This document shows, one piece after another, positions 6,632-51,842 of a stretch of DNA of 64,000 nucleotides. The notes under the pieces were generated by a model, which was given only the letters and a program-made list of their open reading frames with translations, ran no database searches and was not told the origin of the DNA. The DNA is from Bordetella genomosp. 2. GTDB taxonomy: Bacteria > Pseudomonadota > Gammaproteobacteria > Burkholderiales > Burkholderiaceae_B. Position numbers and translations under genes: made by a program. Each line of letters opens with the position of its first letter. Positions within the stretch are counted from its first letter, which is position 1. Location: the NCBI RefSeq assembly GCF_002261345.1, contig NZ_NEVT01000004.1, positions 1 through 64,000 of the forward strand, given 5' to 3'.

Positions 6632-6667
6632 GAGGTGTCAGGCCCCCTGAAGGGTGCCTGACACCTC
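6632..6667. repeat. GGTGTCAGG-type inverted repeat between flaA and lpdA
   Basis: GAGGTGTCAGG (6632-6642) and its exact inverse CCTGACACCTC (6657-6667) with a 14-nt loop. It belongs to the same family as the GGTGTC(A/T)GACACC palindromes elsewhere in this window and sits between two convergent genes. Confidence 0.75.
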
Positions 6668-6769: not shown

Positions 6770-8575
6770 TCACTTCTTCCGCATCGGCGGCAGGTCGGTG
6801 CAGACGCCTTCGGCCACTTCGGCCGCCATGCCCACCGATTCTCCCAGCGTGGGATGCGGGTGGATGGTCTTGCCGATGTCCACCATGTCGGCGCCCATCT
6901 CGATCGCCAGGGCGATTTCGCTGATGAGGTCGCCGGCATGGGTGCCGACGATACCGCCGCCGACGATGCGGTGGCTCTCCGCGTCGAACAGCAGCTTGGT
7001 GAAGCCCTCGTCGCGGCCGTTGGCGATGGCGCGGCCGGATGCGGCCCAGGGGAACAGGCCCTTCTCGACCTTGATACCCTGCTTCTTGGCCTCGTCCTCG
7101 GTCAGGCCGACCCAGGCCACTTCCGGATCGGTGTAGGCCACCGACGGAATGACGCGCGCGTCGAAGAAGGACTTCTGGCCGGCGGCGGCCTCGGCCGCCA
7201 CGTGGCCCTCGTGGACCGCCTTGTGGGCCAGCATGGGCTGGCCGACGATATCGCCGATGGCGAAGATGTGCGGCACGTTGGTGCGCATCTGGCGGTCCAC
7301 TTCGATGAAGCCGCGTTCGGTGAGGGCGATGCCGGCCTTGTCGGCGCCGATCTTCTTGCCGTTGGGGCTGCGGCCCACGGCCTGCAGCACCAGGTCATAG
7401 CGCTGCGGCTCCTTGGGCGCGCCCTCGCCCTCGAACGTGACGTAGATGCCGTCCTTCTTGGCCTCGGCGCCCACCGTCTTGGTCTTGAGCATGATGTTGT
7501 CGAAACGGCCGGCGTTCATCTTCTGCCAGACCTTGACCAGGTCGCGGTCGGCGCCTTGCATCAGGCCGTCCAGCATTTCCACCACATCCAGGCGCGCGCC
7601 CAGGGTGGAATACACGGTGCCCATTTCCAGGCCGATGATGCCGCCGCCGATGATCAGCATCTTCTTGGGAATGGCGCGCAGCTGCAGCGCGCCGGTGGAA
7701 TCGACGATGCGCTCGTCGTCCGGCAGGAACGGCAGCTTCACCGACTGGCTGCCCGCGGCGATGATGGCATGCTTGAAGCGGATGGTCTGGGCCTTGCCGT
7801 CGGCGCCCTTGACGGCCAGGTGGTGCGGATCGGCGAATTCGCCCACGCCGGTCACCACTTTCACCTTGCGGGCGCGGGCCATGCCGGCCAGGCCGCCGGT
7901 CAGCTTGGCGACCACGCTGTCCTTGTAACCGCGCAGCTTGTCCAGGTCGATCTTCGGCTCGCCGAAGCTGATGCCGTGGGCGGCCAGGGCGCGCGCCCCG
8001 TCGATGACGGCGGCGTTGTGCAGCAGGGCCTTGGACGGAATGCAGCCAACGTTCAGGCAGACGCCGCCCAGGGTTTCGTAGCGCTCGACCAGCACCGTGG
8101 ACAGGCCCAGGTCGGCGGCGCGGAAGGCGGCCGAATAGCCGCCGGGGCCGGCTCCCAGCACCACCACGTCGCATTCGACGTCGGCGGCGCCGCTGTGGGA
8201 CGCGGCGGCCGGGGCGGCAGTGGCTTGCTTGGGCGGCGCCGGCTGCTTGCCTGAGGTGTCAGACACCGGCGCGGAGGCTTGCTCTTTCGTTTTGGTGTCT
8301 GACACCTCTTGGGTTTCAGACACCTGGGCGGCGTCGCCGGCCTCGACCTCCAGGATCACCTTGCCTTCCGACACCTTGTCGCCGACCTTCACCTTCACCG
8401 ACTTCACCACCCCGCCCGCCGAGGCCGGGATCTCCATCGACGCCTTGTCGGACTCCACCGTGATCAGGCTCTGCTCCGCCTTGATCGTATCGCCTTCGTT
8501 CACCAGCACCTCGATGACTTCCACTTCCTTGAAGTCGCCGATGTCCGGCACCTTGATTTCCACGAGTTTGCTCAT
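6770..8575 (-). CDS. lpdA: Dihydrolipoamide dehydrogenase (E3) with N-terminal lipoyl domain
   Basis: 601 residues, about 125 longer than ordinary E3, because residues 1-82 form a lipoyl domain (lipoylated Lys44 in ESDKASMEIP). Residues 83-130 are an Ala/Pro/Gln linker containing VSDT twice and VSET once, encoded by dispersed palindromes. The rest is a flavin disulfide reductase: FAD motif VVLGAGPGGYSAAFRA, redox Cys173/Cys178 in GGVCLNVGCIPSK, an NAD-binding GGGIIGLEMGTV, and a C-terminal dimer interface with the catalytic His-Glu. It reoxidises lipoyl groups of the E2 encoded 12 bp upstream. Lipoyl-E3 fusions are known in Neisseria and Ralstonia. GGGAG precedes the ATG. Confidence 0.96.
   Translation of the reverse strand: MSKLVEIKVPDIGDFKEVEVIEVLVNEGDTIKAEQSLITVESDKASMEIPASAGGVVKSVKVKVGDKVSEGKVILEVEAGDAAQVSETQEVSDTKTKEQASAPVSDTSGKQPAPPKQATAAPAAASHSGAADVECDVVVLGAGPGGYSAAFRAADLGLSTVLVERYETLGGVCLNVGCIPSKALLHNAAVIDGARALAAHGISFGEPKIDLDKLRGYKDSVVAKLTGGLAGMARARKVKVVTGVGEFADPHHLAVKGADGKAQTIRFKHAIIAAGSQSVKLPFLPDDERIVDSTGALQLRAIPKKMLIIGGGIIGLEMGTVYSTLGARLDVVEMLDGLMQGADRDLVKVWQKMNAGRFDNIMLKTKTVGAEAKKDGIYVTFEGEGAPKEPQRYDLVLQAVGRSPNGKKIGADKAGIALTERGFIEVDRQMRTNVPHIFAIGDIVGQPMLAHKAVHEGHVAAEAAAGQKSFFDARVIPSVAYTDPEVAWVGLTEDEAKKQGIKVEKGLFPWAASGRAIANGRDEGFTKLLFDAESHRIVGGGIVGTHAGDLISEIALAIEMGADMVDIGKTIHPHPTLGESVGMAAEVAEGVCTDLPPMRKK
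8255..8324. repeat. Three GGTGTCNGACACC palindromes inside the lpdA linker
   Basis: Exact copies at 8255-8267 (central A) and 8294-8306 (central T), plus a one-mismatch copy GGTTTCAGACACC at 8312-8324. Read on the coding strand they encode VSDT, VSDT and VSET between the lipoyl and flavoprotein domains. Confidence 0.85.
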
Positions 8576-8579
8576 GACG
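8310..8579 (-). repeat. Lipoyl-domain duplication, lpdA copy
   Basis: Nearly base-for-base identical to 10032-10301 in aceF. Over the first 86 codons the proteins are identical apart from the last repeat-encoded residues; one silent difference is visible (Asp codon GAC versus GAT). Identity starts at the palindrome and ends just beyond the ATG. Confidence 0.9.
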
Positions 8580-8587
8580 GCTCCCGG

Positions 8588-10297
8588 TTACAGCGCAATG
8601 CGGCGGAAATCGGCCAGCAGCTGGCCCAGGTACGCATTGAAGCGCGCGGCGGCGGCGCCGTCGATGACGCGGTGATCGTACGACAGCGACAGCGGCAGGA
8701 TCAGGCGCGGCACGAACTGCTTGCCGTCCCACACCGGCTTGTGGGCCGAGCGCGAGACGCCCAGGATGGCGACCTCGGGGGCATTGATGATGGGCGTGAA
8801 ATGGGTGCCGCCGATGCCGCCCAGCGACGAGATCGAGAAGCAGCCGCCCTGCATCTCGGCCGGCGAGATCTTGCCGTCGCGGGCCTTCTTGGACAGCTCG
8901 CCCATTTCCTTGGCGATATCCAGGATGCCCTTCTTGTCGGCGTCGCGGATCACCGGCACCACCAGCCCATTGGGCGTGTCGGCCGCGAAGCCGATGTGGT
9001 AGTACTGCTTGTAGATCAGCTGGTCGCCATCGAGCGAGGCGTTGAACTCGGGGAACTTCTTCAGCGCCGCCACCACGGCCTTGATCAGGAACGCCAGCAT
9101 GGTGACCTTGATGCCGGCCTTCTCGTTTTCCTTGTTCAGGGTGACGCGCAGCGCCTCCAGGTCGGTGATGTCCGCCTCGTCATTGTTGGTGACGTGGGGA
9201 ATCATGACCCAGTTGCGATGCAGGTTGGCGCCGGATATCTTCTTGATGCGCGACAGCGGCTTGGCCTCGATCGGCCCGAACTTGGTGAAATCGATCTGCG
9301 GCCACGGCAGCAGGCCGAGCGCCGCGCCGTCGGCGCCGCCCGCGGCTGCGGCAGCGGGCGCGGACAGCGCCTGCTTCACATAGGCGCGCACGTCGTCCGC
9401 CGTGATGCGGTCCTTGCGGCCGCTGCCCTTGACCTTGCTCAGGTTGACGCCGAGTTCGCGGGCGAACTTGCGCACCGAGGGCGAGGCGTGCGGCAGCTGG
9501 CCCGGCTTGAGGCCGGGGTCTTCCAGCGCGGCGGTCGGCGACGGCCGGGCGCCGGCGGCTTTGTCGGCTGCCTGCTGCGGCGCCGCGCCGGCGCTGTCAG
9601 GCGCCTGTTGCTGGCCTTGGGTATCCGGCGCCTGCTGCTGGGCGGGCGCCTGGGCTTTTTGCGGCGCGGCCTGCGCGCCGCCCTGGCCTTCCACCACCAC
9701 GATGGCGCTGCCCTTGGACACCTTGTCGCCCACCTTGACCCTGACTTCCTTGACCACGCCGCCGGCCGAGGCCGGGATTTCCATCGAGGCCTTGTCGGAC
9801 TCGACGGTGATCAGGCTCTGCTCGGCCTTGATGGTGTCGCCCACCGCGACCATGACCTCGATGACTTCCACTTCCTTGAAGTCGCCGATGTCCGGCACCG
9901 TCACTTCGGTGACGCCGCCGGCCGGCTCGACATCCGGGGCCTCCTCGGTCTGGCCCTGGGTCTTGGGAGCCGGCGCCGGCTGGTTGTCCGACGCCTGGGC
10001 CTGCTTATTGGGCGCGGTGTCAGACACCCCCTGGGTGTCTGACACCTGGGCTGCGTCGCCGGCCTCGACCTCCAGGATCACCTTGCCTTCCGACACCTTG
10101 TCGCCGACCTTCACCTTCACCGACTTCACCACCCCGCCCGCCGAGGCCGGGATCTCCATCGATGCCTTGTCGGACTCCACCGTGATCAGGCTCTGCTCCG
10201 CCTTGATCGTATCGCCTTCGTTCACCAGCACCTCGATGACTTCCACTTCCTTGAAGTCGCCGATGTCCGGCACCTTGATTTCCACGAGTTTGCTCAT
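8588..10297 (-). CDS. aceF: Pyruvate dehydrogenase E2, dihydrolipoamide acetyltransferase
   Basis: 569 residues. Two lipoyl domains (about 1-80, Lys44; about 128-205, Lys168) are joined by Ala/Pro/Gln linkers. A peripheral subunit-binding domain follows (about 270-305, ASPSVRKFARELGVNLSKVK), then the catalytic core ending with His542 and Asp546 in DHRVIDGAAAARF. It transfers acetyl from lipoyl to CoA and forms the core of the complex. The first linker contains VSDTQGVSDT encoded by two palindromes. It lies 12 bp after aceE and 12 bp before lpdA, giving the order E1-E2-E3. AAGG upstream of the ATG supports the start. Confidence 0.97.
   Translation of the reverse strand: MSKLVEIKVPDIGDFKEVEVIEVLVNEGDTIKAEQSLITVESDKASMEIPASAGGVVKSVKVKVGDKVSEGKVILEVEAGDAAQVSDTQGVSDTAPNKQAQASDNQPAPAPKTQGQTEEAPDVEPAGGVTEVTVPDIGDFKEVEVIEVMVAVGDTIKAEQSLITVESDKASMEIPASAGGVVKEVRVKVGDKVSKGSAIVVVEGQGGAQAAPQKAQAPAQQQAPDTQGQQQAPDSAGAAPQQAADKAAGARPSPTAALEDPGLKPGQLPHASPSVRKFARELGVNLSKVKGSGRKDRITADDVRAYVKQALSAPAAAAAGGADGAALGLLPWPQIDFTKFGPIEAKPLSRIKKISGANLHRNWVMIPHVTNNDEADITDLEALRVTLNKENEKAGIKVTMLAFLIKAVVAALKKFPEFNASLDGDQLIYKQYYHIGFAADTPNGLVVPVIRDADKKGILDIAKEMGELSKKARDGKISPAEMQGGCFSISSLGGIGGTHFTPIINAPEVAILGVSRSAHKPVWDGKQFVPRLILPLSLSYDHRVIDGAAAARFNAYLGQLLADFRRIAL
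10016..10046. repeat. Pair of GGTGTCNGACACC palindromes in the aceF linker
   Basis: Exact copies at 10016-10028 (central A) and 10034-10046 (central T), in opposite orientation and 18 bp apart start to start. They encode the VSDT...VSDT part of the linker after the first lipoyl domain. Confidence 0.85.
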
Positions 10298-16615: not shown

Positions 16616-16679
16616 GGTGTCTGACACCCCTCGAAGCGCCGCCGGCAGGCAGGCGTTGCCTCCCGGGGTGTCAGACACC
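16616..16679. repeat. Inverted pair of GGTGTCNGACACC palindromes between folD and prlC
   Basis: GGTGTCTGACACC (16616-16628) and GGTGTCAGACACC (16667-16679), extended outward and inward so that AGGTGTCTGACACCCC pairs exactly with GGGGTGTCAGACACCT: a 16-bp stem with a 35-bp loop. In RNA it would form a strong hairpin between folD and prlC. Confidence 0.85.
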
Positions 16680-51609: not shown

Positions 51610-51842
51610 GGTGTCTGACACGCAAGGTGTCAGACACCTGGGTTGCCCCACCGGCAGGTGCCGGGCCCCGCAAGTGCCCGACACCGAGGTCCCACGCAAG
51701 GTGTCAGACACCTGTGCTGCCCCACCGGCAGGTGTCAGGCTCCGCAGGTGCCCGACACCGGGGTCCCACGCAAGATGTCAGACACCTGTGCTGCCCCACC
51801 GGCAGGTGTCAGGCTCCGCAGGTGCCTGACACCGGGGTCCCC
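51610..51842. repeat. 74-bp tandem repeat array built from GGTGTCAGACACC units
   Basis: Fills most of the 316-bp gene-free gap between gspF and glnB. After a leading GGTGTCTGACACG (51610-51622), units start at 51626, 51700 and 51774 (exactly 74 bp apart; the third is about 90% complete). Each unit begins with the GGTGTCAGACACC palindrome (GATGTC in the third), contains a shared TGCCCCACCGGCAGGTG core, and holds a second hairpin of GGTGTCAGG and CCYGACACC. The unit is too long and too palindromic, and lacks unique spacers, to be CRISPR. The remaining 51843-51905 shows only GC-rich sequence. Confidence 0.9.

Follow-up and report, generated by a model that had tools for sequence, protein, structure and literature searches.

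The window analysed here is a 64,000-nucleotide stretch of Bordetella genomosp. 2 (contig NZ_NEVT01000004.1, positions 1 to 64,000) that carries on its minus strand two neighbouring genes of pyruvate dehydrogenase: aceF (8588..10297), encoding the E2 subunit with two lipoyl domains, an E3-binding domain and a catalytic domain, and lpdA (6770..8575), encoding E3 with an N-terminal lipoyl domain and a dihydrolipoamide dehydrogenase domain. In both genes, the segment encoding the linker behind lipoyl domain 1 contains the palindrome GGTGTCNGACACC, found exactly at 8255, 8294, 10016 and 10034 and with one mismatch at 8312, and these are the five palindromes that a first-pass annotation, made from the sequence alone, had placed in the E2 and E3 linkers. 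All five are read in the frame GTG TCN GAC ACC, which gives Val-Ser-Asp-Thr (VSDT), the mismatched copy at 8312 giving VSET, and the annotation's further point that an element lies within coding DNA with an open frame stands. As set out below, the palindromes are halves of repetitive extragenic palindromic (REP) elements, most of them paired into doublets. The doublet in aceF linker 1 (10015..10048, minus strand) comprises a 31-bp hairpin at 10016-10046 with outer CA and G on the coding strand and encodes Q-VSDT-QG-VSDT; its paralogue in the lpdA linker (8294..8324, minus strand), one half of which bears the mismatch, encodes VSET-QE-VSDT, and a single REP half in the same linker (8255..8267, minus strand) encodes VSDT. 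The window holds 36 matches to the 13-mer with at most two mismatches, against 3.4 +/- 1.8 expected from 100 shuffles.

The palindromes belong to a family of REPs and REPINs, the latter being REP doublets that form hairpins. Exact copies of the 13-mer number 366 in the 5.02-Mb genome of the window (G000 among the nine genomes of the genus, G000 to G008), compared with 0 for a reversed control, and range from 0 to 691 across the nine genomes. To place them relative to genes, we sampled 864 kb, namely the window plus 40 further 20-kb stretches, and predicted the genes in it with a self-trained codon model; since this sample takes in the window, the four exact linker copies are included in it by choice. 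Invasion of coding DNA is rare. Within the sample, 84 of 89 exact copies are intergenic, one overlaps a gene end and four are intragenic, the last being precisely the four exact copies in the aceF and lpdA linkers. Grouped into clusters, 15 of 30 are flanked by convergent genes and 12 by tandem genes, two are inside genes and one is beside a single called gene, and none of the 30 falls between divergent genes. Samples of 400 kb from two relatives gave a similar picture: all 74 exact copies of G006 are intergenic (0/74 inside genes), as are 30 of 32 in G008, where one more overlaps a gene and one is close to the C-terminus of an open reading frame, in the VSDT frame; divergent gene pairs hold one cluster each in these two samples. 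The first-pass annotation had envisaged a dispersed element that invades coding DNA, and had proposed a genome-wide count of the 13-mer as a check. Its dispersed element of mobile kind is borne out by the copy number and by the transposase gene described below; the count returned no exact intragenic copies in the sample beyond the four already reported, and a general habit of gene invasion is not supported.

The most common spacings of neighbouring copies are 18 bp and about 50 to 52 bp. In its short form the element is a 31-bp hairpin, GGTGTCAGACACC-N5-GGTGTCTGACACC. Exact doublets whose loops span 3 to 7 bases number 64 in the window genome, a count that leaves aside the lpdA doublet with its one mismatch. 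The centres of the two halves are complementary in all 51 short-loop doublets that were read (A-T in 39, T-A in 12), and just one of these 51 lies in coding DNA as judged from the codon scores of its flanks, namely the aceF doublet. Four stretches folded as DNA were far more stable than their shuffled versions (z -5.9 to -9.7). Relatives also use a slightly asymmetric form, in which one half reads ...GACTCC, and a second subtype (type B) with GGC/GCC stems. Short-loop doublets of the first and second subtype number 68/14 in G000, 14/194 in G001, 176/142 in G003, 107/156 in G004, 7/67 in G005, 399/18 in G006 and 566/244 in G008, and 0/0 in both G002 and G007. Taken together, the family has the attributes by which REPs and REPINs are recognised, namely a copy number above about 100, a mostly extragenic location, inverted doublets capable of forming hairpins, and a repeat-flanked gene for a REP-associated tyrosine transposase (RAYT).

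The RAYT gene was recognised as a Y1 transposase match above the cut-off of PF01797 in six of the nine genus genomes (G000, G001, G003, G005, G006 and G008), that is, in six of the seven that bear repeats, and in neither of the two repeat-free genomes (G002 and G007). Palindromes with at most two mismatches lie on both sides of the gene at all six loci; the flanking repeats in G001 and G005 are GGC/GCC variants, with no exact 13-mer. Three of four tested proteins also exceeded the cut-off of the NCBIfam model REP_Tyr_transpos (NF047646), the window genome's copy scoring 77.4 bits against a cut-off of 80. This copy contains the sequence NHVHLL, an HVH motif that we take to be the HUH motif of RAYTs. 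Its gene is on a different contig from aceF and lpdA, and it is bracketed by a pair of exact 111-bp direct repeats that contain two REP doublets apiece (L131 1159-1269 and 2216-2326; G000:C8). The match in G006, a genome with 567 repeat copies, is interrupted by one in-frame TGA, and its transposase may be inactive. Outside the genus, three Achromobacter-type genomes (G102, G123 and G138) carry a RAYT gene downstream of lpdA, at a distance of about 720 to 1140 bases, flanked by palindromes with at most one mismatch (L277, L278 and L048).

The reading frame, which the first-pass annotation had used as an argument, was considered across genomes. As annotated, the VSDT frame is permissive and the frame GGT GTC NGA yields TGA when the central base is T; because each doublet consists of one A-centred and one T-centred half, the latter frame always meets TGA in doublets. 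The third frame, TGT CNG ACA CC, had been overlooked and is likewise open. All 22 exact linker 13-mers that were found are in the VSDT frame (four in G000, one in G003, three in G004, six in G008, two in G123 and six in G138). Nine of the ten other intragenic matches with one mismatch in the 864-kb sample are in this same frame, of which the fixed third codon positions are G or C, in keeping with the codon usage. While all five window copies do lie in the permissive frame, we rejected the frame as stand-alone evidence, because the 22 copies represent few independent events and the other genic matches share it.

Among relatives, linker copies are found in six of the seven repeat-bearing genomes of the genus, as exact 13-mers in G000, G003, G004 and G008 and in eroded form in G001 and G006. 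The motif is missing from G005, although that genome bears repeats, and from both repeat-free genomes. Linkers free of the palindrome, for which the first-pass annotation had suggested looking, thus exist in G002, G005 and G007, and also at 11 of 12 named Achromobacter loci. The pattern by which it would have recognised protein-level conservation, VSDT encoded with varied codons in all relatives, was not encountered, as VSDT is absent in G002 and G007 and, in genomes that have it, the REP sequence itself is mostly kept, with erosion in G001 and G006. A first look that used only one or two genomes per other genus had left the repeat apparently restricted to the window's genus. This restriction was rejected on the strength of nine more repeat-bearing genomes in the family and of named Achromobacter loci with the repeat: at least ten copies are present in 16 of 268 family genomes, of which seven belong to the window's genus, eight to g4 and one to g36 (our labels for groups of the family), the nine outside the genus having 36 to 639 copies each. 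Of these nine, each with at least one linker read, seven show no linker copies and two do: G138 holds three in each of the two genes, and the lpdA linker of G123 contains two exact copies and one eroded copy, a count that covers lpdA, the aceF linker being unread. The exact copies of both are again in the VSDT frame, and the lpdA linker of G138 equals that of an Achromobacter veterisilvae record (L048). The motif is absent from all ten g4 genomes with at most six copies whose linkers were read (out of 11 such genomes), and from the linkers of B. genomosp. 1 and B. ansorpii. Because nearly all g4 genomes that were read lack it, as do these two Bordetella species, at least two linker acquisitions are likely, with G123 and G138 standing outside the tree described below, and an Achromobacter lineage probably acquired its copies in these linkers separately.

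Within the genus, the copies appear to be related through the genes that carry them. Lipoyl domain 1 of aceF and that of lpdA are equal at 224 of 225 bases in the window, up to the linker (10073-10297 and 8351-8575, respectively). The same comparison gave 220-225 of 225 for each of the seven genus genomes that bear repeats, 189 and 196 for the repeat-free pair and 203-207 for four other genomes, two further rows being unreadable. Given this near-identity, the linker doublets of the window are best taken as paralogous copies, and the five palindromes are not independent events. Across species, the linker doublets have in common a CAR loop that codes for glutamine, which is rare in doublets elsewhere in three of the genomes (1 of 566 type A doublets in G008, 1 of 176 in G003 and 3 of 107 in G004) and common in G006 (35). 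We rejected the idea that every linker copy is a fresh insertion because this loop is rare among resident doublets, an argument that counts as support and not as proof given G006. The simplest account of the sequences is instead that the linker doublets descend from a single old insertion, which conversion and duplication later multiplied. Two further ideas were tried and rejected. The linker repeats do not appear to cause the conversion of the lipoyl domains, since G005 is converted without them and two other loci that lack the 13-mer (L119 and L120) are also highly alike; and an apparent rearrangement parting aceF from lpdA in G004 falls on single N bases (L213 1350 and 3201) inside the lipoyl repeats, which are probably assembly joins.

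The linker doublets themselves retain the marks of a REP. We read 14 of them in six genomes (two each in G000, G001, G004 and G006, one in G003 and five in G008), 11 of which are distinct. The third positions of the two Ser codons are complementary in all 11 distinct doublets (U-A in eight, C-G in two, A-U in one), and standard pairs make up 88.3% of their hairpins. Two hairpin pairs covary, one at these silent Ser positions and one in G001 that alters the protein on both sides, and three of five measures in a hairpin test exceeded all 500 shuffles, a test limited by few rows and by shared descent. Such pairing may simply have been inherited from the REP variant that was inserted. Folded as RNA, the two linker doublets of the window beat their shuffles by far (z -5.3 and -5.4), the aceF mRNA hairpin reaching -27.9 kcal/mol (z -5.3). 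On the coding strand, 12 of the 14 doublets are bounded by CAG at one end and by G at the other, always in a single orientation, the exceptions being the lpdA copy of G000 and the eroded aceF copy of G006; the intergenic doublets of G008 share these outer bases CA...G (A in 94% and G in 94%, n=33). Relative to the commonest form, distinct codon changes comprise 12 nonsynonymous ones over about 21.3 sites and eight synonymous ones over about 7.7 sites, which looks like a loosely constrained linker and not a guarded motif. The linker copies thus derive from REPs and are not a conserved peptide motif: the two Ser codons remain paired where changes are silent, and neither of the REP-free genomes in the genus has the motif.

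We therefore favour, with a probability of roughly 0.85, an account in which a REP or REPIN inserted into an ancestral lipoyl linker, was tolerated there in frame and was copied between aceF and lpdA. The palindromes are halves of REPs or REPINs, 13 bp long and mostly arranged in inverted pairs whose hairpins measure 31 bp or about 64 bp, and the genome's own RAYT transposase has presumably spread them. Selection would confine them almost wholly to intergenic DNA, survival elsewhere being possible only where length, frame and structure permit. In an ancestor of the group, at least one REP would have inserted into the disordered linker that follows lipoyl domain 1, with a stop-free frame and a net length that preserved the reading frame. 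The linker would tolerate about ten additional polar residues, the insert being kept as VSDSQRVSDT or VSDTQGVSDT, and the peptide was probably translated and tolerated passively. Gene conversion through the near-identical lipoyl segments, together with local duplication, would then have copied the insert between aceF and lpdA, and an Achromobacter lineage probably made a separate acquisition at the same place.

Several observations weigh against this account. With respect to the family and its transposase, GTAG, the tetranucleotide found at one end of many REPs linked to RAYTs, does not mark these repeats and was not enriched within 14 nt outside the doublets (2/18, 0/28 and 3/33 distinct doublets); G004 has 144 repeat copies and no RAYT match to PF01797, which five of the eight repeat-rich g4 genomes also lack (the three with a match being G102, G123 and G138); and REP movement by the RAYT is presumed, no strain pair offering a clean empty site. 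With respect to the linker copies, the other two measures of the hairpin test did not rise above shuffling (102 and 109 of 500 shuffles were as high). The outer bases CA...G are not a general trait, as there is no consensus in G006 (28 doublets) and resident doublets of the window genome have A before in 83% and T after in 67% (n=18). Since G008 shows the CA...G flanks while G006 and G000 differ, this suggests that the window linker copy came from an old source, or one resembling G008, and not from repeats now resident in its own genome. With respect to their history, the window aceF doublet has centres A...T and its lpdA partner T...A, for which simple conversion fails to account. On a 16-row tree, in which shorter lpdA pieces were used, a minimum of two changes is needed to explain which rows have linker copies. 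Support for the backbone of the genus is poor, and on it a single old gain followed by losses is inseparable from several gains.

A more ambitious version holds that REPs were adopted more than once, in two genera, as segments of the E2 and E3 linkers, always in the VSDT frame and with conversion as their vehicle, which would amount to parallel exaptation of selfish DNA in the swinging arm of a central metabolic complex; we regard this as possible and rather doubtful. It is unlikely that the insert has been domesticated, whether as a useful peptide, as an mRNA hairpin that for instance slows the ribosome after the lipoyl domain, or as a means of setting linker length. Such a function would fit the stability of the aceF mRNA hairpin, the two covarying pairs, one of which changes the protein on both sides in G001, the use of the same linkers by two genera and the presence of the motif in six of seven repeat-bearing genus genomes. 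The codon changes, however, point to just mild constraint, the motif is eroded in G001 and G006 and absent from repeat-bearing G005 and from seven of the nine repeat-rich genomes outside the genus, and covariation is equally expected from REP variants that were paired before insertion.

Similarly improbable is a true insertion hot spot, in which the linkers would attract REPs because, for example, an ancestral RAYT lay beside lpdA or conversion exposed single strands. The RAYT genes downstream of lpdA in G102, G123 and G138 would suit this explanation, as would the contrast in lipoyl domain 1 identity between the seven repeat-bearing genus genomes and the six others (189-207). However, the RAYT gene of the window genome is on another contig, G102 has an adjoining RAYT gene but no linker copies, neither the conversion in G005 nor the likeness of L119 and L120 comes with linker copies or the 13-mer, respectively, and the association is confounded by descent. 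Finally, we give next to no credence to VSDT as an ancestral linker motif with the palindrome a by-product of codon usage, for although most other genic one-mismatch matches share the frame and the peptide is retained with some codon change in G001 and G006, the same sequence exists in hundreds of mostly intergenic copies, linkers without the motif occur in G002, G005, G007, B. genomosp. 1, B. ansorpii and 11 of 12 named Achromobacter loci, and the silent positions of the Ser codons pair.

Elsewhere in the window, the family is represented in other forms. A long-loop REPIN of two inverted 13-mers 51 bp apart, identified from its matches and fold, lies between two plus-strand genes (16616..16679), and an array of REP halves of both subtypes occupies the interval between convergent genes at 51610..51833, as seen from 13-mer matches and gene context. 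The repeat period of this array is about 74 bp. A type B doublet with a GGC/GCC stem (6634..6665), found by matches and pattern, separates the end of lpdA from a gene that we presume, from its sequence, to be flagellin-like.

In-frame REPs are already known in other bacteria, and what is new here is a RAYT-linked member with a recurrent landing site in two genera. The locus offers a comparable case of mobile-type DNA turned into protein sequence in a core enzyme, and would illustrate how one insertion can be multiplied by gene conversion. Since relatives show linkers that are repeat-free, empty in a repeat-bearing genome, well preserved or eroded, selection on the REP peptide and on its hairpin becomes measurable. 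The results also suggest that Bordetella and Achromobacter have a REP family with a linked RAYT; among the matches listed in the open-licence literature, none was a paper on such a Bordetella family, which may be described elsewhere, a result that does not take in a sequence comparison with the intergenic Bor-1 family of classical bordetellae.

Among known systems, Rickettsia palindromic elements (RPEs) of the RPE-1 type are longer than the repeat described here and spread over many genes, and O. terrae, named below, we take to be Opitutus terrae. REPs and REPINs linked to RAYTs are known from Pseudomonas fluorescens SBW25 and others, and the repeats described here resemble those of P. fluorescens in their high copy number, mainly extragenic location, hairpin doublets, tandem arrays and adjoining RAYT gene; they differ in showing no enriched GTAG, in a half-unit that is an almost perfect 13-bp palindrome, in many loops of about 5 nt, and in having some copies in frame within genes (PMC3116915). 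Two repeats of Bordetella, which may or may not be related to the window repeat, have been described with longer units. Bor-1 is likewise a structured, intergenic, high-copy family, a stem-loop with 196 members in B. bronchiseptica and 128 in B. pertussis, whose units in these classical bordetellae are longer, at 117 and 93 bp (PMC2267715). BRE, a repeat of about 90 bp in Bordetella and other betaproteobacteria including Comamonadaceae, is also usually intergenic with some coding copies and suspected mobility, and has a longer unit and fewer copies, at most 29 per genome (PMC3110155). The closest parallels to the linker copies are intragenic. REPs tagged with GTAG or CGTC are found within genes of O. 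terrae, Rickettsia conorii, Thauera and others, and these too are short palindromes in protein genes that add residues and are often dimers; many are in genes of DNA synthesis and repair, whereas here only the pyruvate dehydrogenase E2 and E3 linkers were found, and the tag differs (PMC3733652). As with the RPEs cited in the same report (PMC3733652), a palindromic element is retained in frame as extra residues: the linker repeat is an in-frame segment missing from homologues (G002, G005, G007 and 11 of 12 named Achromobacter loci), and, unlike an element spread over many genes, it lies internally in aceF and lpdA only, a statement on the 864-kb sample and not on the whole genome.

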